A stretch of 64,000 bases of DNA. Origin: Carallia brachiata (taxonomy: Eukaryota > Streptophyta > Magnoliopsida > Malpighiales > Rhizophoraceae). Positions 1,515 to 53,765 of the stretch are shown in pieces. The DNA lies in contig JADCRB010000065.1 in the NCBI GenBank assembly GCA_021464245.1, forward strand, positions 1,000,689 to 1,064,688. Reading direction: 5' to 3'. Position numbers and translations under genes: made by a program. The notes beneath the pieces are model-generated. The model saw only the letters and a program-made list of their open reading frames with translations, had not been told where the DNA came from and searched no databases. Every line of letters starts with the position of its first letter. Position 1 is the stretch's first letter.

Positions 1515-3056
1515 ATGGATAGGCAACCTCATGTGTTAGCAATAGCATATCCTGCACAAGGCCATACAGGGCCTCTGATGAAGCTGTCACAACTGATTGC
1601 TGACAATGGAATCAAGGTCACATTTGTGTGCCCGGAGTTGATACGAAATCGAGTCTTGACAGAAGTTCCCGCTAATGGTGAAGTTCAAAACCAAGTTAAT
1701 ATAGTTTCAATCCCGGAAGGTTTTGAGCCGGGAGATGACCGAGACGACCAGGCGAAATTGAGTGAAGCTATGTTTACAGTCATGCCTACACACTTTGAAA
1801 GCTTGATAAGGAAGATGAACTTATCAGATGACAAGAAGGTCACTTGTGTCTTGGCTGATCCATTTGTTGATTGGGCGCTAGAAATTGCTAACAAGCTAGG
1901 AATCCAGGCAACCGCGTTTTGGCCTGCTTTTGAAGTTGGTGCGGCCTTGATGCTGCATGTCCCTCAGCTAATTCAGGAAGGAATTGTTGATCAAAGTGGT
2001 AAGTTGGATACCCATTTATATTTCTTTTCTTACCTTGTTTATCATCCCAAGTCTTATAGAACACTGAAAATTTTAATTGGAAAAGTCATGCATATGCAAT
2101 AATAAGAATATTGAGTGGTTAATGCTGTAGCCCAACATTTCTTACAAAAGTATGATTCCTGTGCAGGAATTCTATTGAAAACTGATAAGAAGATCAATAT
2201 ATCACCAAAACTGCCTGCCATCAATGCTGAAGACTGTATATGGATCATCCGAGATGACCCAATGGCGCAAAAGGTGGCATTTCAATTATTTTCAAATGCC
2301 ATTGAAGGTATCAAAGTCTCAAACTGGCTTCTCTGTAACTCATTTTATGACCTCAACCCTTCAGCTATGGACTTATTTCCAAACCTCTTACCCATTGGTC
2401 CAATACTTTCAAGTAAAAGTAAGCTTGGAAAATCTGTTGTAAACTTTTGGGAGGAAGACTCAAGTTGCTTATCTTGGCTGGATAAGCAGCCCGCCAGATC
2501 AGTAGTTTACATTGCCCTGGGCAGCGTAACAGTCCTTACGCAGCACCAATTTGAAGAATTAGCACTAGGAATCGAACTTTCAGGTCTACCATTCTTGTGG
2601 GTTGTGAGATCAGATCTTACCCAAGGTTCCATTATTCAATACCCAGAAGGATTCCTAGACACAGTAGCTAATCGCGGAAAAATAGTAAAATGGGCACCTC
2701 AGGAACAGGTGCTGGCTCACTCTTCCATTGCTTGTTTCTTAAGCCACTGTGGCTGGAACTCAACCATGGAAGGGCTAAGCATGGGTTCGCCCTTTCTGTG
2801 TTGGCCTTACTTTGCTGATCAGTTTCTTAACAGAAGTTACATTTGCAACATCTGGAAGGTCGGTCTTGGGTTGGAAGCAGAGGACAGTGGTCTAATCTCA
2901 AGGCATCAGATAAAGACCAAGTTGGAGAAATTGCTTTGTGATGGTGAAATAATTGCAAATTCAATGAGGTTGAAGGAATTAGCCCAGAAGAGTGCCAGTG
3001 AAGGCGGATCCTCCATGCAAAACTTCAAGTTTTTCATTGACCAAATCAAACACTGA
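1515..3056 (+). CDS. UGT83A1: UDP-glycosyltransferase, UGT83A1-like (two exons)
   Basis: This GT1-family enzyme transfers a sugar from a UDP-sugar, probably UDP-glucose, to a small hydrophobic acceptor in the cytosol. The coding exons are 1515-1998 and 2167-3056. The intron (GTAAGT...GTGCAG) splits a glycine codon, and the product is 457 aa, against about 460 for the family. The catalytic histidine is H17 in PAQGH, with D115 in the VLAD segment as the probable charge-relay partner. The 44-residue PSPG donor-binding box spans residues 337-380, from WAPQEQ through HCGWNS to FADQ. Its final Gln is the residue usually linked to UDP-glucose preference. No stop or frameshift interrupts it. The overall fit is to subfamily 83, whose acceptors are poorly known, so the acceptor is not predicted. 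The start was chosen because MDRQPHVLAIAYPAQGH is the expected N-terminus. Confidence 0.9.
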
Positions 3057-5182: not shown

Positions 5183-5187
5183 ACTTT

Positions 5188-6652
5188 TGTTGGAAAATTC
5201 ACACCTCATGCATACTTTAGGGAAATTGTTATTAAGTGTGAATTCATGTTTTGATGATGAGTGTTTTGATAATGAGCTATGAACCAATCTAACATAAGTA
5301 CAAGTGAATTTCATTTGTATGTTCTTCAAGTATACAATTCAGGTTCAAGAAGTCCAAAGAGGTACACATATGCCATCTTACACGTGCATGGAAGTGCATG
5401 GAAGAGAAATATCACATTGGGCCTTATTAAGCTACTATCTTATAAAGACAGCATAAGAGCAAATCTGTTTGGACAGATTCCAGGTACTAAACTCACTCAC
5501 TTGAGATATATTTTGGACCTAAAATATATATATTTTGGCAGGACTATAAGTCTAGTTTCAAATGAGCTTGGTCGTGCAATTTTTGGAGCCCTAGAGAAAA
5601 ACTTATGAATTTTATACCAAGAGGGTGCAAGCTGTCAGGAACTTTCAGTGCACATGGAGTGAATTGCAACGGCTGCCTAGAAGAGCACACGACGAATTTG
5701 AATGTGAAATTTTGTGTGTAGATTCTTTGTTCTGTCTATTAATCAATGCAAAAAGAATCACATCAAAATTCAAAGCCATCTGCAAGATATTACCGTTCTA
5801 CTAAAAGTGTGCAGACTGTCTAACGGAACTTTAACGTCTGTATTCAAACATTTATTTGACTATGCTATACTCATTCAAAAATAGTCAAATTTGGTGGGTA
5901 GAGAGCTCTGACAGTCTACTAAATAACAAAAAAGGAATCGAATTTTTCAAGCTGTCTGTATCAAGTTATAGCCGTTCAACCAGAAGGTGTCAAACAAGAG
6001 AATCAATGCAAAGCTGTCAAGAGGGAAACAACAAGGTATGCATGTGCAACTCATGGCAACGGCTCTAACATGCTAACCTATCTTGCAGCTATTTAAACAT
6101 CACTTGAAGATGTTTTACTTGTGAAGAAAGTTATATTCAACCACTGTACAATCTCTCTCAAGGCAAAAAGGCTTTCTTTACTCTAAGTGCTTTTATTGTA
6201 AAACTAGCATTCAAGCTAGTAAGTTTCATTTGTATTGTAATACATTGTGAGAATAGGTGAGAGCTCTCAAGTGGGACTTGTGAGGATCATCTTGTAAGGA
6301 GTTAGGGTTGAACTCCAAGAAGGAAAACCTAAAAGAAAAGGGAAAGTGGTGTTGGCAAGTGGGACTTGTGCAACAAGCGTTTTGAAGGCGGACGCAAGGG
6401 TGTTTGCGGAGTCTTCTTGTAAACTGTACGGTGATTGGTGCGCCCAAAGGCACCCTTATAGTTGAACTCTCAAGAATCTCCAATAGAGGGATTGTTGAGA
6501 AGACCAAGGACGTAGCCATTTGGTGAACCTTGTAAAAATCGGTATTGTATTTCTTTCAATCTCTTTTTACATTCATTTGTAGAAATTTATATTTGAGGAT
6601 TTCATTGGTAAGCCTATTCACCCCCCTCTAGGCTTCACCCTAGGGACCAACA
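5188..6652 (+). repeat. 5' LTR of the Copia element
   Basis: Direct repeat of 1465 bp with short terminal inverted repeats TGTTGG/CCAACA. A TATTTAAA box at 6090-6097 is the probable core promoter of the element, placing the start of R near 6120. The 109-codon ORF at 5279-5608 lies wholly inside the LTR and is repeated in the other LTR; it resembles no known protein and is regarded as chance. Confidence 0.95.
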
Positions 6653-6654
6653 TT

Positions 6655-6666
6655 TGGTATCAGAGC
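6655..6666 (+). other. primer-binding site (initiator tRNA-Met)
   Basis: TGGTATCAGAGC starts two bases after the 5' LTR. It is complementary to the 3' end of plant initiator tRNA-Met, the usual minus-strand primer of Copia elements. Confidence 0.93.
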
Positions 6667-6707
6667 TTAACCTCACTTGTAAGGCTTAACATCCTTGAGG
6701 GATCCCC

Positions 6708-8120
6708 ATGGAATCCTCATAATGAAAACAAGAGACCTTTCTTTGATGGTAGTGATTTTCAATACTATAAATCATATGGAAAGTTATCTTAAATTTAAGG
6801 GGATGAAAGTTTGGCAAAGTGTAGAAGAGGGACCATATGTGCCTAAGGAAGAAGTTGTTGATGATAAGGGAGTAAAAACCTTGAGAGTAAAACCAATAGG
6901 AAAATGGGATGAAGAGGACTATAAGAAAAACCAAATAGATGAAATAGCATATTATTATTTGAAAACGTCCATAGCTAGAAGTGAATATAACACCATCAAA
7001 CATTGTAAAAATGCTAAGGAAATTTGGAATACATTGTGTCTCTCAAATGAAGGGACATTAAAAGTTAGGAAAGTTAAACTTGGCATGCTTATGAAAGACT
7101 TTGAACTTTTCACTATGAGACCAAATGAATCGGTTAAAAGTGTGTATGATAGACTCATGATTATTGCTAATGGACTAACCGATCTTGGCAAAGTGTTTGG
7201 AAAGGGTGAACTTGTGCAGAAATTAATGAATTCGATGAATGAGGAATACGAAATGAAGATTAATGCCATTGAAGAAACTCACAACGTGGAGGAGCTAACC
7301 ATGGAAGAGTTACTTGGGTCCTTGATAACTCATGAGATCAAACTCAAAAGGAGAAGTGCATTACCACAAGTAGAACCATCCTCAAAAAATGTAGCACTCA
7401 TGGCCCTAGATGACATGAAAGTGACAATGAGGTAATGGATCTTCCCTCTTATGAAGAACTTAGAGAAGCTTTTGATGATTTATTGATCACTTTTAAAAGG
7501 AAATGTAAACAATATAAAGAGCAAAAGAAAGCATGTGAAAAACTTTTGTTAGAGAAAGATGAAATTGTATTGGAAAATAGTCTTTTAAAAGAAGAACTTG
7601 AAAAGGCTAAATTAGATCATAAATCAACTTGTAGTGAGTTAAATTTTGTTAAACAAGAGCTTGCAATATCTAAAGAGGTTCCTAACATCAAAGACAATTT
7701 ACATCATGCTTTGGAAAAAAAGTTGAGGACCTTAAAGAAAAGAATTTAAATTTAGAAAAGTCCTTTTCAAAATTCACATTAGGTAGCAATAAGATAGATG
7801 AGATGTTATCTTGTCAAAAGAAATTTTTTAACAAATCCGGTTTGGGATACCTCACTAAAAACAAGACTAATCTCATAAAAGAGAAGAAAAATGTTGTATC
7901 ATGTTTTTATTGTCATAAAGAAGGACACAAATTTCATGATTGTAGACTTAGAAGACCTAGTGATCCTAACAAGTATGTGTCATCTTCTAAAGTTTGGGCA
8001 AAATCTAATAAATTCAAACAAGTATGGATGGTTAAAGATTCAATGAAGAAGAATGATTGTTGTAACATTGAAGGACCCAAAAAGATATGGGTACCAAAAT
8101 ATCTACATCTTGTTTTGTAG
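6708..8120 (+). pseudogene. Copia gag (UBN2-type capsid plus zinc knuckle), frameshifted
   Basis: The capsid region is a UBN2-type gag: a WQSVEEGPYVP-like segment is followed by the conserved KEIWNTL and FELFTMRPNESV blocks. It continues as a strongly charged coiled coil (about 7435-7749) and a nucleocapsid zinc knuckle of the form CX2CX4HX4C at about 7894-7935. The frame breaks at about 6770, at the junction near 7400-7435, and in an A-run near 7715, and a stop precedes the protease near 8118. Gag packages the element RNA into virus-like particles. This copy could not make the full protein unless the small indels are assembly errors. Confidence 0.85.
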
Positions 8121-8450
8121 GTGGAAAAGTACTTGAAGGCAACATATTTTAAAGAAGATGCCATTTGGTATCTTGATAGTGGATGTGTCACATTTGGAGA
8201 CAATGGAAAAGGCAAAATCATTGGAGTTGGCACTATAGGTAACAATGTATCGAGTTTTATTGAGGATGTTGCTTTGGTAAGTGGTTTAAAGCACAACTTA
8301 ATTAGCATTATCCAAATGTGTGATAAAGGTTTTAAGATATTATTCAAACCCATGACTTGTGAATTATATGATCCCCATACTAAAGCATTGAGATTTGTAG
8401 GAAAAAGAATAAGTTGTGTAATGCATGTGCTTGTTAAGACCCTAAGGTTT
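8121..8450 (+). pseudogene. Copia pol remnant: start of aspartic protease
   Basis: The segment encodes WYLDSGC, the Copia protease active site (DSG). It then jumps directly to VTFGDNGKG and a GLKHNLISI block with a small internal deletion of the residues that normally follow DSGC. Similarity stops at about 8440, where foreign sequence begins. The GAG-pre-integrase, integrase, reverse transcriptase and RNase H domains are absent from both strands of the element. Confidence 0.85.
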
Positions 8451-9230
8451 CGTTTTTTTTTGGTTTTGATGATTGCTAAACACTGAGAGTTACTAATATG
8501 TTTATTTAAGTGTGTAGTTAATGATTTAATCAAATAAACATCAATTGAAATGGAAGCAATGCTAGCATAAGGCAACTATTGATATTGGTCACATTCAGTG
8601 TAAGTATATCCAGTATGGTCAACTTTAAAAGGCTCGTTTGCTCACATGGAGATGAACTAGATAATGTGCTATATACGGTTAGAAAGATAATTCTGTCTAG
8701 TTTCTGAATTCTCAAGAATCATCTCAATTGGATATTTTGGAGGAAGTTATAGTCTATGAACTGAAAGGTGCTCAATCTGTCAAGGCAGACAGGATCAGTC
8801 CACTTTAAGAGATGATTGCAAAAATGGGAAGGAACTAGCTGTTGAGTTTTATATTCATACAAATATAATTCTGTCTAGTTTCTAAATTGACCAGAATCAC
8901 GCAAATTGGAGTTCTGTAGAAGGAGATATTGCCAAAATACTAAAGGATGTACAGCCTGTCCCGTCCAGCAGGATCAGTCAACTTCCAGAAGCACTACGGC
9001 TAGCTGGAGTGGAATCAGACCATGATCTATACATGTATGAAAAGCTCTATGAGTCTACTTTCAAATGGAAGAAACAGGATATGATTTGGAGTTATACAGG
9101 TAGACTTATGATTGATTCTTTAAGAAGTGCCAGAGCTGTCCAATTGAGAAAGGAAACTAGCTTAAATTGGGTTTGTGTGATGCATGCTTAGATTAAAACA
9201 AATACATACTTCATTTTCAGGGCAAGATCC
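8433..9230 (+). repeat. foreign LTR-like segment with a 120-bp imperfect direct repeat
   Basis: Sequence from TGTTAAGACCC onward has the look of the left end of another SIRE-type LTR: a TG start, a TTTTGATGAT motif soon after, and CTGTC-rich stretches. It does not match the LTRs of the host element. Inside it, about 8688-8805 and about 8868-8987 repeat each other imperfectly, both starting at ATAATTCTGTCTAGTTTCT and both holding a CAGGATCAGTC block. No right LTR end, primer site or coding part accompanies it. It probably marks the recombination or template-switch point that replaced pol. Confidence 0.5.
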
Positions 9231-9507
9231 CAAGAACAACGTCTCACACACTTTCACAAGGTTTTACATTTTTCCCCACGTCTTTATCTCAGTAGTACAT
9301 GCAGACTTACCAAAATTGATAAGTACACAATTACAAGACAAATAACACCAACCACTTATTCATACATATTAGAGTACACCAACCATGACTCATCCATGTA
9401 CTATGCACTACAAGACAACATCCCTGCGCATACATACATTCCAGTAAAGCTTTGTATGTTGGAATCCATATTCCAACGCCAGAAAATGTCTTCAGATCTT
9501 ACCCCTG

Positions 9508-10094
9508 TCAGTCGCTCCTAGGGGGCCTAAGGCGTAGCTCTAGATCCATAAAGCCCTCATTGTTCGGCAGGTTGGCAATGTCAATAGTACCAGCATTTTC
9601 TTGCTGATTGAGATCACCTAGATGAACAGGAAAGAGACTGAGTGTTTCTCTTTCTCCCTCACGAGAAGAGTTGACCGATCTGCTTCTCACTGGAGTAATG
9701 CTTCCTACTAAGTGAAAATATTCATGGGAATTTGATCTCTGACCCACATCAAAGATTTCAAATGATAAATGGAAATACCTGGTGGCTGGCGATGCTGGTT
9801 GGGATTTTCTTGAGAAACAATTGTTGTGTTGGTGGAATGAATAACAGGAGGTGCTCTGCCTATTCTCACACTGCGCCTTCGGTTCTGGATCCAGAGTCTA
9901 ATGTTACTTGGCTGAATTGGACCATATGGTCTCAACAGTGAGACAAGTTGAGTAAGTTGGCTTGATGTCGGACGAGCTTCTTCAATGCCATGAAAAATAT
10001 TTTCCAAGATTTGTAATTGCTCCGGCACCGGTCTCCATCTGGAATTGGAAGAGTCTCCAGTTTCCAAGTTCGGATGGCTTGATGGTGGTCTCAT
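9508..10094 (-). CDS. WUSCHEL-related homeobox (WOX) transcription factor captured inside the retrotransposon
   Basis: Two exons (10094-9779 and 9707-9508) joined over a 71-bp GT-AG intron (9778-9708) give an uninterrupted 171-aa protein. The intron is phase 1 and both exons stay in frame across it. Residues about 18-80 form a WOX homeodomain: SRWRPVPEQLQILE, then RPTSSQ, then PYGPI, then the recognition helix with W68, Q70 and N71 in the WIQN core. A WUS-box follows at residues 127-134 (TLSLFPVH; family form TLPLFPMH). A C-terminal EAR-like repression motif lies at 161-165 (LELRL). The three motifs in this order are diagnostic of the WUS clade, nuclear factors that control stem-cell and lateral-organ programmes. 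The start at 10094 has a good AACAAAATG context; an upstream in-frame ATG at 10163 would add 23 residues. The gene lies antisense to the retroelement. It is intact but divergent, so whether it is expressed is unknown. Confidence 0.85.
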
Positions 10095-10460
10095 TTTGTT
10101 GAACGGAAAGGTGAGTGAAAATTTTGAGACTCTGGATGATGAAGAGAAATTGAGATAATGCATATCTCCATTTATGTCTGACGATCCGCAATTTACGCCT
10201 GACTGTCAGCGGTAATAATTGCTTGGCTGTCCTCAACTTTCGCTTAACTGTAAGAAATTTCCGTCTGACCGTTCGCGACTTTTCTGACTGTGTGCCACAT
10301 CTGCACCGTTTCTAATTGTATACCATGTAAGCTTCCACGTAAGCAATTTGACTGCGGTAATATTTTTGACCTACTCATGAACTATTATTGAAGGTAATGA
10401 TCTACATTGTATTTTTGGTAACATAGTGACCAAATTTTGAATAAAGACCTTTTGATAGAA
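10095..10460 (-). promoter_or_regulatory. upstream region of the captured WOX gene up to the retroelement junction
   Basis: About 350 bp lie between the WOX start codon and the resumption of retroelement-like sequence near 10460. They hold several GACTGT/TCTGAC-type words and no clear TATA box. If the captured gene kept its own promoter it would have to lie here; otherwise the antisense strand of the 3' LTR is the only other nearby source of transcription. Confidence 0.35.
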
Positions 10461-10793
10461 GAAGAAAATTGGGCATGTCACACCCCATGCATTAGCATAG
10501 GCTTGATTATCTTCATTTCCTCAATTTAATGATTTTATTTGAACTCTACAAGGCCTGCATTTCAAAGTTACTATAACTTATATGCTAAATTGTAAATGTG
10601 AACTTGTGATACATGCATACATTAAGGGGGAGTCTTAATCTCTTAACCTAGTTAGCATTCACATTTTTTGTTTCAACCATTTTTATTGATGACAAAAAGG
10701 GGGAGAAAATTAAGAGAGTGTCATCAAGAAAGAGCATTTCTAGAGGAAGCTTAGATTAAGGGGGAGCATCTATTTAAGGGTTTTGTCATCATC

Positions 10794-10806
10794 AAAAAGG
10801 GGAAGA
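10794..10806 (+). other. polypurine tract
   Basis: AAAAAGGGGAAGA ends one base before the 3' LTR and is the expected plus-strand primer. Similar purine runs (GGGGGAGAAAA, GGGGGAGCA) occur upstream at 10620-10770, as is usual for SIRE-type elements. Confidence 0.88.
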
Positions 10807-10807
10807 T

Positions 10808-12269
10808 TGTTGGAAAATTCACACCTCATGCATACTTTAGGAAATTGTTATTAAGTGTGAATTCATGTTTTGATGATGAGTGTTTTGATAATGAGTTATG
10901 AACCAATCTAACATAAGTACAAGTGAATTTCATTTGTATGTTCTTCAAGTATACAATTCAGGTTCAAGAAGTCCAAAGAGGTACACATATGCCATCTTAC
11001 ACGTGCATGGAAGTGCATGGAAGAGAAATATCACATTGGGCCTTATTAAGCTACTATCTTATAAAAACAGCATAAGAGCAAATCTGTTTGGACAGATTCC
11101 AGGTACTAAACTCACTCACTTGAGATATATTTTGGACCTAAAATATATATATTTTGGCAGGACTATAAGTCTAGTTTCAAATGAGCTTGGTCGTGCAATT
11201 TTTGGAGCCCTAGAGAAAAACTTATGAATTTTATACCAAGAGGGTGCAAACTGTCAGGAACTTTCAGTGCACATAGAGTGAATTGCAACGGCTGCCTAGA
11301 AGAGCACAAGACGAATTTGAATGTGAAATTTTGTGTGTAGATTATTTGTTCTGTCTGTTAATCAATGAAAAAAGAATCACATCAAAATTCAAAGCCATAT
11401 GCAAGATATTACCATTCTACTAAAAGTGTGCAGACTGTCTAACGGAACTTTAACGTCTGTATTCAAACATTTATTTGACTATGCTATACTCATTCAAAAA
11501 TAGTCAAATTTGGTGGGTAGAGAGCTCTGACAGTCTACTAAATAACAAAAAAGTAATCGCAATTTTTCAAGCTGTCTGTATCAAGTTATAGTCGTTCAAC
11601 CAGAAGGTGTCAAACAAGAGAATCAATGCAAAGCTGTCAAGAGGGAAACAACAAGTTATGCATGTGCAACTCATGACAACGGCTCTAATATGCTGCTAAC
11701 CTATCTTGCAGCTATTTAAACATCACTTGAAGATGTTTTACTTGTGAAGAAAGTTATATTCAACCACTGTACAATCTCTCTCAAGGCAAAAAGGCTTTCT
11801 TTACTCTAAGTGCTTTTATTGTAAAACTAGCATTCAAGCTAGTAAGTTTCATTGTAATACATTGTGAGAATAGGTGAGAGCTCTCAAGTGGGATTTGTGA
11901 GGATCATCTTGTAAGGAGTTAGGGTTGAACTCCAAGAAGGAAAACCTAAAAGAAAAGGGAAAGTGGTGTTGGCAAGTGGGACTTATGCAACAAGCATTTT
12001 GAAGGCGGACGCAAGGGTGTTTGCGGAGTCTTCTTGTAAACTGTACGTGGTGATTGGTGCGCCCAAAGGCACCCTTATAGTTGAACTCTCAAGAATCTCC
12101 AATAGAGGGATTGTTGAGAAGACCAAGTAGTCATTTGGTGAACCTTGTAAAAATCGGTATTGTATTTCTTTCAATCTCTTGTTTACATTCATTTGTAGAA
12201 ATTTATATTTGAGGATTTCATTGGTAAAACCTATTCACCCCCCTCTAGACTTCACCCTAGGGACCAACA
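10808..12269 (+). repeat. 3' LTR of the Copia element
   Basis: The 1462-bp partner of the 5' LTR. It has a TATTTAAA box at 11713-11720 and lacks a 6-bp ATTTGT unit present in the 5' copy near 6230. Read-through from this LTR would enter the flanking DNA at 12275. Confidence 0.95.
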
Positions 12270-12274
12270 ACTTT

Positions 12275-27490: not shown

Positions 27491-30400
27491 ATGGATGATG
27501 ATAACAGAGAGTTTGAGGCACTGCTTTTCGGTTGGAGTAGCAAGAATTCGACGGAGTCTCGACTGTTTATTATATCTTGTTTTGTTGCTGCTTTAGTTGG
27601 TATTTTGACGATAGCTTACACGGCTTTTCAATGGAGAAGGAACATTAGTTTGAATTGGATGAAAGCCATAGCTAGGTCGAAGAGAAACCCGAAGGCAATG
27701 AACAAGGTTCCTGGGGCTCCCCATGCTTGGGAACTTCAATCGGTATCTCGTTGGAAGAACCTTAATTGTTGTGTATGCTTAAAGACCATTTCTCCTTCAC
27801 AGACTCTTGGGCCTATGGTGGCATCGGACTCTTTTATTCATCATTGCAACATTTGTGGTGCAGCAGCTCACCTAAGCTGCTCTTCGAGCGCACACAAAGA
27901 TTGCAAGTGCGTGTCTATGGTTGGATATGAGCATGTGGTGCACCAATGGGCTGTTCGATGGACAGAGATAACAGATCAACCTGATGAAACCTCCATTTGT
28001 AGTTATTGCGAAGAACCATGTAGTGGCTCTTTCCTTAGTGGATCTCCTATTTGGTGTTGCTTGTGGTGTCAACGACTTGTACATGTTGATTGTCACAGTG
28101 GTATGTCCAATGAAACTCGTGACGTATGTGATTTGGGGCCATTCAGAAGGCTGATTCTGTCACCACTTTATGTCAAGGAATTGAACTCTAATCCGGGTGG
28201 ATTTTTGAGCTCTATCACACATGGTGCAAATGAGATTGCTTCTTCAATGCGTGCAAGTATTAGGAGTCAAAGCAAGAAGCACAAGCATGGCAGTGAAACC
28301 TCTGTTGACACAAGTAATAGTGGTAGTACCTGTGACACATCTCCGGATAGCACATCAGGCACCAATTCCACAACTAATGGTCCTCATCGTGTGGAAGAAG
28401 GCTGTAATGGTACCACGAGTATGAATAGCACTTGCCATGATGGTGATGTACATAAGTTGGAATCAAAGTCAAGCTTTAAAAGAAGTGGATCAATGAATTG
28501 GAAAGATGAGTCTCATTTGTTAAGAATGAAACAAAGGTATGAAATAATTGATTTGCCTCATGATGCAAGACCTTTGTTAGTTTTCATTAACAAGAAGAGT
28601 GGGGCTCAGCGTGGAGACTCCCTCAGGCAGCGCCTGAACTTTCTGTTGAATCCTGTTCAGGTCCGAAATGTTTTTCGTATGGAATTTTCTTAAGCTTTTT
28701 GCCATTATGTTGTTCTTCTGATGTCTTCAGTTTGCTTTCTTTTTTCCTTCACCAAGCGCCTTGAGTCCAAGATTCTCACTGTTTGAAATAATATGATTTT
28801 TCAGTGAATTAAAATTTTGTACTAGCTAATTCCAAAGATGTGATTAGTTTCATGTGTAAGGAATCATCTTGCTTTGTAGCAAATATTTTGATAAATGGTG
28901 GAATCAGATAAACACTTTGGAATACCAAATTTGCACTGGGTGATTGTGTGTTTCCACTTTTTCGAGGTGTATAGATAGGGTATCCAGAATTTGGTTGTTA
29001 ATAAGCAGGAAATCCTCTTTTAGAAGTCAGAACATGTGTGTTTGGTTCAATGTGCTTTGGTTTTCATTGTTGGGCGGCTCACAATGTTTATGTTCTGCCT
29101 GGGCCATGGTCTTCATTAGATTGTTTTACTATTTTGGTCTATTTTGGTACTTTCAGGGCAATTGCACTGATCTGCAACATATGAAAAAATGAAATCCTGT
29201 TGATATCACTCATTTTGAAGACACTTCAATGACGTGTTGTTGGAAGAGTGCTTATTTTTTGGACTGATATAGAGGACAATGATGTAAAACTGACTTCGTT
29301 AGTTCGTCTGTTGCTTTGCATATTTTGTTCCATGATGATAAAGCTTACGATTCTTGAGAGAAATAACTTACCATAGTTTGGTCATCAAGTGATGGTGAAC
29401 TTTAAATAGGCAATAGGTTTGCTAGAATTTAGTCGGAGTTGGTGCAAAAGGTTGAGAGCTGCTAGTTCTTTAAGAGGCATACACTTACTATTAAACAGGA
29501 GCTCTTGAAAGTCTATCATATTTCTACTTCTTCTTTTAATTGTTTATACCTTTCAATATGATGTTTATGAGGATCATCCGAATTGGCCTTACAGGTTTTC
29601 GAGTTGAGTTCAACACAGGGACCAGAAGTAGGCCTTTATTTATTCAGGAAAGTGCCTCACTTCAGAGTTCTTGTATGTGGGGGCGATGGTACAGTTGGCT
29701 GGGTCCTTGATGCCATAGACAAGCAAAATTTTGTATCTCCTCCACCAATAGCTATTTTACCTGCTGGAACTGGAAATGATCTTGCCAGAGTGCTTGGATG
29801 GGGAGGTGGTTTGGGTTTTGTGGAGAGACAAGGAGGACTTTGCACAATATTAGGCCAGATAGAGCATTCTGCTGTAACCATTCTTGACCGGTGGAAGGTA
29901 GCAATTGTAAACAGGCAGGGAAAGCAGCTCCAGCCTCCAAAATTTATGAACAATTATCTTGGTATGCAAATATTCATGTTAAACAAGGTTACCTACTAGC
30001 ATTTTTTGAGAGTGATTAGGTTCATAAATGGATGTATAACTTCGGAGATCATGTTTTGCCTCAAGATATCACTATCAAATATGGCTTCAACAATTAAATT
30101 TATGTGCCTTGTATCTCATTCCATTTTTGTCAGATAAGTTGAGTAGTCTCCAGCCCTTTCCTTTAATTGGTTATCGATCTGTCAAGTTTCAACTATAACT
30201 GGTACTGTTTTTTCCTCTGGGTCTATTTTTTTTCAACATCTGGCTTTCTTTTTCTGTTTTTTTATTATTTATTATTTATTATTTTATTTTTTAAAATTTT
30301 GGAAAGACATTAGACGCCAGTGCTCAGGATGGATACTGGGAATAATGAAGATAAATTTATTGTTCCTTGGTCCCTACAAATGTGCAACGTGTGTTCATTT

Positions 30401-39694: not shown

Positions 39695-41136
39695 ATGGTG
39701 AAGATCTGTTGCATTGGTGCTGGCTATGTAGGAGGTCCTACTATGGCCGTAATCGCACTGAAATGCCCTTCAATTGAAGTAGCTGTTGTTGACATTTCAG
39801 TTTCTAGGATTACAGCATGGAACAGTGACCACCTCCCCATCTATGAGCCAGGCCTTGATGAGGTGGTCAAGCAGTGCAGAGGAAAGAACCTTTTCTTCAG
39901 TACTGAAGTTGAAAAACATGTTGCAGAGGCAGACATAATCTTTGTTTCTGTCAACACCCCAACAAAGTCTAGGGGCCTTGGAGCAGGCAAAGCTGCAGAC
40001 TTGACGTATTGGGAAGCGCGGCCAGGATGATTGCCGATGTGTCAAAATCCAACAAGATAGTTGTTGAGAAATCAACTGTTCCCGTGAAGACGGCTGAGGC
40101 AATCGAAAAAATCCTGAATCACAATAGCAAAGGCATCAACTACCAGATTCTGTCAAACCCAGAATTTCTTGCAGAGGGGACTGCTATACAGGATCTTTTT
40201 AATCCTGACAGGGTTCTTATTGGAGGGAGAGAGACCCCTGGTGGCCAAAAGGCCATTAAGGCACTGAAAGATGTGTATGCCCATTGGGTTCCTGAAGACA
40301 GAATCATTTCAACCAATCTGTGGTCAGCAGAGCTCTCAAAGCTAGCTGCCAATGCCTTCTTGGCTCAGAGGATTTCTTCTGTGAATGCAATATCAGCTCT
40401 CTGTGAGGCAACTGGGGCTAATATTTCCCAGGTTTCCCATGCTGTTGGCAAGGACACCAGGATTGGGCCCAAGTTCCTCAATGCCAGTGTTGGCTTTGGT
40501 GGATCATGCTTTCAGAAAGACATTCTCAACTTGGTCTACATATGCGAGTGCAATGGTCTGACAGAAGTTGCAAATTACTGGAAACAAGTTATCAAGATTA
40601 ATGACTACCAAAAGAGTCGATTCGTCAACAGAGTTGTCTCTTCAATGTTCAATACAGTTGCAGGTAAAAAGATAGCCATTCTTGGCTTTGCATTCAAGAA
40701 GGATACCGGTGACACGAGAGAAACACCATCTATTGATGTATGCAAGGGCTTGTTGGGCGACAAGGCACGCCTGAGCATATATGATCCTCAAGTCACAGAG
40801 GATCAGATCCAAAAGGACCTTTCAATGCACAAGTTTGATTGGGATCATCCAGCTCATCTTCAACCAATGAGCCCTACTTCAGTGAAGCAAGCCAGTGTCG
40901 TTTGGGATGCCTACGAGGCCACCAAGGATGCCCACGGTGTGTGCATTCTCACTGAATGGGATGAATTCAAGAAGCTTGATTACCAGAAGATTTATGACAA
41001 CATGCAGAAACCAGCATTTGTGTTTGATGGACGTAACATTGTGGATGTCAAGAAGCTGAGGGAGATTGGTTTCATAGTTTACTCAATTGGCAAGCCATTG
41101 GATAAATGGCTCAAGGGCATGCCTGCAGTCGCATAA
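39695..41136 (+). CDS. UGD: UDP-glucose 6-dehydrogenase, with one 1-bp deletion
   Basis: The enzyme oxidises UDP-glucose to UDP-glucuronate using 2 NAD+ in the cytosol, supplying precursors for hemicellulose and pectin. The coding region is a single exon. The NAD-binding loop GAGYVGG is at the N-terminus, NTPTK follows near residue 90, the catalytic cysteine is C272 in GFGGSC, and the end is KGMPAVA. The frame is broken once: after GAA at 40013-40015 one base, probably A, is missing. The product splits into 39695-40015 and 40016-41136. With that base counted, the length is exactly 480 aa, the invariant plant UGD length, and every other codon is intact. That pattern favours a sequencing or assembly error over a decayed gene, although a very recent null allele cannot be excluded. 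Confidence 0.92.

Positions 41137-43064: not shown

Positions 43065-53765
<10,701 letters not shown>

Follow-up and report, generated by a model that had tools for sequence, protein, structure and literature searches.

A WUSCHEL-type homeobox gene carried antisense, in the place of pol, by a non-autonomous Ty1/copia retrotransposon family

Positions 5188-12269 of the window (the whole stretch of 64,000 nucleotides that was analysed) are a Ty1/copia LTR retrotransposon, a non-autonomous member of a family that we call F1, and this element carries a WOX gene. It is flanked by a perfect target site duplication, ACTTT, at 5183..5187 on the left and 12270..12274 on the right (neither with a strand), and bounded by a 5' LTR (5188..6652) and a 3' LTR (10808..12269), both on the forward strand and with TGTTGG...CCAACA ends. 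Between the LTRs, also on the forward strand, follow a primer-binding site (TGGTATCAGAGC, 6655..6666), read directly from the sequence, which we take to be of the tRNA-Met type and whose anchor is present in 20 of the 21 copies compared; a copia-type gag (6716..8120; PF14223, 4.1e-27); a protease/pre-integrase remnant of pol (8121..8430; Pol_BBD, 2.5e-7); a probable RNase H reading-frame tail (10437..10496), read by eye; and a polypurine tract (AAAAAGGGGAAGA, 10794..10806), again read directly from the sequence. Paired LTRs, primer-binding site, polypurine tract, 5-bp target site duplication and copia-type gag together identify the element as Ty1/copia. Gag is broken into three open reading frames in the window copy (6716-7435, 7435-7749 and 7803-8120); a single gag frame of 484-490 amino acids occurs in three of the 21 copies (L023, L026, L027). 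Neither Pfam nor reading by eye found any pol in the window beyond the Pol_BBD remnant and the probable RNase H tail, and the element is classed as non-autonomous because a pol with the order PR-IN-RT-RH is missing. The place of integrase, reverse transcriptase and most of RNase H is occupied by about 2 kb of foreign sequence, from ~8431 to ~10437, with the RNase H tail as its right border. This insert starts with a non-coding tract (8431..9230, no strand assigned) that begins with TGTTAAG and contains imperfect direct repeats of ~178 nt. By eye the tract gives an LTR-like impression, and among the stretches fetched it had no match outside F1 copies. Compared with the window copy, many fetched copies have ~170 nt and 50 nt extra near 9180 and 8187.

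The two LTRs of the window copy are 97.3% identical with gaps included (21 substitutions in 1454 columns, 8 indels; K2P 0.0146). At the substitution rates of 1.3e-8 and 7e-9 per site and year used for LTR dating, this divergence places the insertion at 0.56 or 1.04 million years ago. An Rfam scan and a tRNA scan of the window were empty. Elsewhere in the window, Pfam marks host genes for a UDP-glucosyl transferase (2115-3056), a C1 domain protein (27491-28693), a UDP-glucose dehydrogenase (40009-41136) and an HA2/Helicase_C helicase (45028-46053).

The WOX coding sequence (complement 9508-10094) runs antisense to the element in a continuous frame of 171 amino acids; all features of the gene given here lie on the reverse strand. 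Exon 1 (9779..10094) opens with the ATG at 10094 and contains the homeodomain codons (9855..10046; residues 17-80 of 171). A phase-1 intron of 71 nt with GT..AG borders (9708..9778) leads to exon 2 (9508..9707), in which a WUS-box, TLSLFPVH (9622..9645), and an EAR-like motif, LELRL (9529..9543), both read directly, precede the TGA stop. A start further upstream, at the ATG at 10163 (194 amino acids), was considered and rejected. This ATG is missing from four second-class copies, whereas all 40 copies have the ATG at 10094, and the latter is therefore the likelier start. The 5' flank of the gene (10095..10436, ~343 nt) is the presumed promoter; a pattern search found no TATA box upstream of the gene. 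A degenerate 21-nt periodicity lies upstream at ~10178-10285 (P 0.002 by single-base shuffle), for which Tandem Repeats Finder listed no repeat. Its surroundings are the most variable stretch of the insert.

Homeodomain and motifs point to the WUS clade for the product. The homeodomain is recognised by Pfam (PF00046, 2e-6), and its best relatives of solved structure are STENOFOLIA (E 1.1e-8) and WUSCHEL (1.8e-8). With an alignment that included nine host WOX rows, AlphaFold predicts three helices for exon 1 (block means of 77-88 pLDDT), and the ten best PDB matches of this model are without exception homeodomains of WUS or STENOFOLIA, with a lowest E of 0.003 and hence none below 0.001. A structure model made without an alignment has a mean pLDDT of 41.8, its top PDB match being STENOFOLIA (E 0.046). 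The F1 protein is nonetheless divergent: helix 3 reads WIQNRRR, with Ile in place of Phe, as against WFQNHKA in nine host WUS-clade genes, and the WUS-box TLSLFPVH compares with ETLPLFPIH in host WUS-like and ETLQLFPLN in host WOX5-like genes. The F1 intron, in phase 1, begins 115 nt past the helix-3 Trp codon. In four of the nine host WOX genes, scored phase-1 donors lie 112-148 nt past this codon, namely at 112 in the WOX5-like L015 (where a phase-0 site at 72 was scored as well), at 127 and 136 in the WOX1-like L009 and L011, and at 148 in the WUS-like L010. L014 has a scored phase-2 site only, at 122, and no donor site was scored in the remaining four of the nine. Scans of viral and bacterial contigs returned no relatives of the gene.

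In the assembly to which the window belongs (337.5 Mb, 164 contigs), the WOX gene is a dispersed repeat found on many contigs; 40 of 115 candidates were scored, and these are 96-100% identical. These 40 comprise the window copy, 20 copies fetched with their flanks (together n=21) and 19 others fetched as the gene stretch only; loci L001-L008 duplicate the window and the L021-L027 copies and were counted once. Two full LTRs are present in 15 of the 21 copies examined with flanks, their K2P divergence ranging from 0.0055 to 0.043, and the target site duplications are perfect over 5 bp in 13 of these 15 and match at 4 of 5 bases in the other two. The left junction of the insert could be aligned in 19 of the 20 fetched copies and the right junction in 14, and these alignments revealed no copy with pol at the insert position and WOX elsewhere. 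In the 14 fetched complete copies, the interior from LTR to LTR is element sequence that aligns throughout, except for gaps of up to ~340 nt, which leaves no room for pol. L021 is a partial unit only. In L035, an F1 copy has apparently inserted in the gag of another F1 copy.

Because full-length copies share the same insert place and have separate target site duplications, the WOX gene transposes as a part of the element, and it has moved with it repeatedly and recently. A duplication taken alone could not exclude that the gene entered a single element after its insertion, through nesting or rearrangement, and was never mobile with it. The position of WOX between gag and 3' LTR material in 18 of 21 copies, together with the separate duplications of the 15 copies with two full LTRs, refutes this scenario and leaves it practically no probability. 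The earlier note had described a gene between two LTRs that share a perfect ACTTT, with a complete frame over two exons and homeodomain, WUS-box and EAR-like motif in this order, and had regarded it as part of a transposed unit whose copies might be dispersed. The boundaries and the reading of the gene given above agree with this description, the arrangement of frame and motifs being far above chance, and the search for copies bears out the dispersal. Copies of the family with pol at this place and the WOX sequence elsewhere, which the note had named as contrary evidence, were not seen.

The frame and both splice sites of the WOX gene are intact in 21 of the 40 copies, which rules out a reading-frame artefact, and the encoded protein is the same in nine of the 21. 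Among the 19 broken copies, 16 are one or two bases short, two are interrupted by a stop and the last has lost its splice acceptor. Variants shared among F1 copies comprise 13 nonsynonymous, 10 synonymous and no stop changes, and singletons 32, 12 and 2, respectively. Measured against the neutral expectation for nonsynonymous, synonymous and stop changes (~0.68, 0.29 and 0.03), shared variants stand at ~0.55 of neutral and singletons at ~1.1. Pairwise pN/pS is 0.52 among intact and 0.53 among broken F1 copies. The dN/dS of ~0.5 among F1 copies, the measure that the earlier note had proposed, is not significantly below 1 (binomial P 0.12 for shared variants), and the comparison of shared with singleton variants is not significant either (Fisher P 0.18). 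For the N-terminal part of gag, taken for comparison, shared variants are 10 nonsynonymous and 4 synonymous (20, 20 and 12 copies for three pieces, those with coverage below 80% dropped). Purifying selection on the gene in the F1 copia family is, on these sequence counts, suggestive only.

Diversity along the insert was compared in 18 of the 21 copies (L021, L030 and L034 excluded). Here pi is 0.0136 in the coding sequence against 0.0191 and 0.0225 in the flanks and 0.084 upstream. The intron has a pi of 0.0083, below that of the exons, and the homeodomain 0.0205 against 0.0095 in the rest of the gene; the variable homeodomain and the less variable intron therefore speak against strict constraint. 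A neutral simulation based on each copy's own LTR divergence yielded 3.95 expected intact copies as compared to 8 of 15 observed (P 0.02), a result that is biased because similarity to an intact copy decided the ranking of the copies. For the window copy, the neutral probability that the 171-aa frame has stayed intact since insertion is 0.20-0.28.

The main rival on function is that the gene is a neutral passenger, caught accidentally in the lesion that removed pol, amplified in trans and decaying after insertion. Such a passenger would account for a pN/pS in F1 that is not significantly below 1, for singletons that look neutral (34 nonsynonymous plus stop to 12 synonymous), for the 19 broken copies among 40 and for the appreciable chance that the window frame is still intact under neutrality. 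The lack of a stop among the shared variants points the other way, though fewer than one would be expected. We give this explanation substantial weight, albeit less than even odds.

A search for the origin of the gene in the host recovered nine canonical WUS-clade genes (L009-L017), with WOX names assigned by motif reading. Pairs of WUS-, WOX1- and WOX4-like genes occur among them, a hint of past duplication of the host genome. A search with a host homeodomain gave 1343 candidates; the 150 that were scored are the nine known genes, three further host genes (one WOX9-like and two WOX13-like, making 12 host WOX genes found) and 138 repeat places. Three further one-mismatch hits were also read: L019 turned out to be a fragment of WOX5-like type, decayed and interrupted by stops, and neither L018 nor L020 reads as WOX. 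Capture of the F1 gene from one of the nine canonical genes was rejected as an origin, as its homeodomain is identical to theirs at only 18-24 of 66-67 positions and falls outside them in the tree on a very long branch. Among the 12 host WOX genes, with 150 of the 1343 candidates scored, there is no donor close to F1.

The 138 repeat places constitute a second, larger WOX-bearing repeat, F2, with 48-54% identity and open frames of 101-380 amino acids (among the 150 of 1343 candidates scored). Six of these places were read (L060-L062 and L066-L068), and the family unity of the others rests on score and identity. L060 (G000:C86:1772500-1776000) and L062 have an uninterrupted frame for a WUS-clade protein with an ETLPLFP box and a DLELHLGP end; the protein of L060 matches WUSCHEL in the PDB at 2.9e-18. 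In L061 the frame is open and the box scrambled by indels, L066 is broken, and L067 and L068 end at the edge of the fetched stretch. The WOX gene of L060 lies in sense, downstream of an integrase (rve, 6.6e-11) and upstream of a polypurine tract and the start of an LTR; L061 and L062 are collinear with it. F2 is thus, to judge from its one closely read copy (L060, with the LTR start read at one end), a Ty3/gypsy element. Long poly-A tracts separate integrase and WOX in L060. At 1872-1972 of the same locus, a stretch of the open WOX frame, continuous in frame with the rest, has intron-like edges (a GTATGT start and two AG at the end). The idea of an old intron that is read as coding sequence in F2 was considered and not upheld; the edges exist, and their phase and length are not decisive. 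At L031 (8945-10000), an F2 integrase end adjoins an F1 copy, with an F2-type WOX place just beyond.

The F1 and F2 (L060) proteins match at 1e-22 in BLASTP, with 34% identity over their length, including the WUS-box and the C-terminus. In a homeodomain tree of 66 columns, a split with support 80/98, found in 77% of 200 bootstraps, sets F1 and F2 apart from the 12 host genes; branches are long, and the place of F1 may be an artefact because of its Ile-for-Phe helix 3 and its very long branch. The nearest relative that we found for the F1 gene is, by these comparisons, the WOX gene of another retrotransposon, F2. The homeodomain phylogeny that was to reveal the donor, according to the earlier note, therefore did not do so: F1 falls on the F2 side, outside the 12 host genes, none of which is close. 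A recent capture from a known host gene, in parallel with the oncogene capture by retroviruses that the earlier note had drawn on, is not supported by these comparisons.

Selection in F2 bears on the neutral passenger as well. Pooled over 15 pairs of six copies, which are not independent, pN/pS is 0.49; 14 pairs range from 0.29 to 0.99, and L066-L067, with two synonymous changes, reaches 2.5. By part, pN/pS is 0.39 in the exon 1 part and 0.75 in the last part (exon 2). Fisher tests gave P 0.003, 0.004 and 0.013 for three hand-chosen, non-independent pairs with rounded counts. That a second element family carries a related gene, for which these three chosen tests indicate constraint, argues against a mere passenger, as does the retention of homeodomain, WUS-box and EAR-like end in both families despite their low overall identity.

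Whether the two families acquired the gene separately has to be weighed in the same light. Separate captures of one divergent host WOX gene, by copia and by gypsy and with no passage between elements, would agree with the differences between F1 and F2 in orientation, intron state and flanks, and with the finding that the F1 element and the fetched F2 loci are not similar at the DNA level. No host gene of that lineage is, however, among the 12 non-repeat WOX genes (150 of 1343 candidates scored), although the donor may be lost or hidden, and we consider two captures rather unlikely. A single capture followed by passage between elements would be the simplest history, because the nearest relative found sits in the gypsy family F2.

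Taken as a whole, the observations are best explained by a non-autonomous copia family with an antisense WUS-clade accessory gene that is mobilised in trans and shares its gene lineage with F2; we assign this explanation a probability of roughly 0.7. Briefly, F1 would have lost most of pol and gained in its place a compact antisense WUS-clade gene that has an intron and, probably, a promoter of its own. A related autonomous element would supply in trans the enzymes that use the LTRs, primer-binding site and polypurine tract of F1 and copy the whole unit, and this copying would have spread the WOX gene to the at least 40 scored sites (of 115 candidates). The intron would survive each cycle because the gene is antisense and its intron is invisible to the splicing of element RNA. 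Expression would be driven by a promoter of the gene's own in the ~343 nt upstream. WUS-boxes and EAR-like motifs recruit co-repressors, and the protein is predicted to be most likely a nuclear homeodomain repressor that is kept as the element's accessory regulator. Its benefit to the element might, at a guess, lie in activity in stem cells and the germ line. It is tempting to go further and to propose that the WUS-clade gene is a standing, selected accessory gene, present in sense in gypsy and in antisense in copia elements of one genome, exchanged between the two, and a means by which elements gain access to shoot stem cells and thereby to the germ line; this proposal we regard as tentative and, at present, doubtful.

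Amplification of WOX genes by LTR elements is already known from Vigna. The accessible part of a 2023 meeting report that covers work of K. Naito (PMC10714607) describes many WOX copies in Vigna marina and V. riukiuensis, more than 1000 of them in the latter, which mostly lie between identical LTRs with target site duplications. Many-copy WOX between LTRs with such duplications is the likeness to our case, and the copy number is of the same order as the 1343 candidates found here; the comparison is one by description, as superfamily, orientation, clade, structure and selection are not given in the accessible part of that report. It leaves open a host role of the WOX copies in the coastal species. 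Some F1 copies might likewise have become domesticated regulators that now serve the host, a view that is in line with the many intact copies and with the LTR-element WOX amplification in salt-tolerant Vigna (PMC10714607). Conservation singled out no copy in what was examined, and we consider domestication improbable.

Antisense accessory genes have precedents among other plant retrotransposons. Grande, RIRE2, Retand and PvRetro13 are gypsy elements with an extra ORF between pol and LTR. From the parts of two publications available to us (PMC7264820, PMC11963269), F1 resembles these elements, such as Grande with its gene23, in having an antisense extra gene in the 3' half whose protein is thought to be DNA-acting or nuclear, and in Grande such a gene has its own promoter. 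Their antisense ORFs have no clear similarity to other proteins according to the review, whereas the F1 gene belongs to the recognised WUS clade and has an intron; the same parts contain no mention of a homeobox among the extra ORFs of LTR elements. F1 further differs from Grande-type elements in being copia and in carrying the gene in the place of pol. A regulator that acts in meristems, LONELY GUY, provides another point of comparison. It acts on cytokinin, and a LONELY-GUY-type domain of Citrus is, along with AlkB of orchids and B3 of Aegilops, one of the domains captured by gypsy elements (PMC9289625). As in F1, a host-type regulatory gene has become fixed as an element ORF in these cases. 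The screen of 121 angiosperm genomes in that paper, as far as its text was accessible, yielded 15 extra domains, all of them in gypsy as opposed to the copia element F1, and the main text has no mention of homeobox, WUS or WOX in the part available (PMC9289625). Gene-capturing LTR elements also include maize Bs1 and those with captured genes in rice and sorghum (PMC7264820, PMC3726574, accessible parts), which share with F1 a host gene inside the LTR unit. Captured genes of the Bs1 type are, in the accessible text, usually in sense and present in one or a few copies (PMC7264820), whereas that of F1 is antisense, intron-bearing and a regular part of an amplified family. For Brassica napus, the available part of a WOX study reports elements near WOX genes (PMC6482515).

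In the literature searched, with subscription papers and bioRxiv preprints mostly outside it, we found neither a WOX-carrying element other than that of Vigna nor a report of WOX in two LTR superfamilies within one genome. New here are the copia, antisense, pol-replacing and intron-bearing form of the WOX cargo, with its dates, frames and first selection figures, and the co-occurrence with a gypsy family that carries a relative of the same gene.

Together, the two families suggest that a WOX-type gene has become retrotransposon cargo. They offer a datable, multi-copy system in which a gene from a family of developmental master regulators travels with an element, and they make testable whether elements manipulate the stem cells from which the germ line arises, and to what extent they inflate the WOX gene counts of genome papers. 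One gene lineage in two superfamilies, if true, would mean that accessory genes pass between retrotransposons, and a standing accessory gene, if true, would be the equivalent in plants of oncogene capture by retroviruses, but one that lasts longer than any single element. Testable, too, is a response of the LTR to the element's own WOX protein. Among WUS-type sites in the LTR, TAAT is depleted (z -2.9) and TGAA is weakly enriched, with a z of 2.3, only the sixth of 136 tetramers; none of 35 control windows reached this TGAA value, the highest being 1.56.
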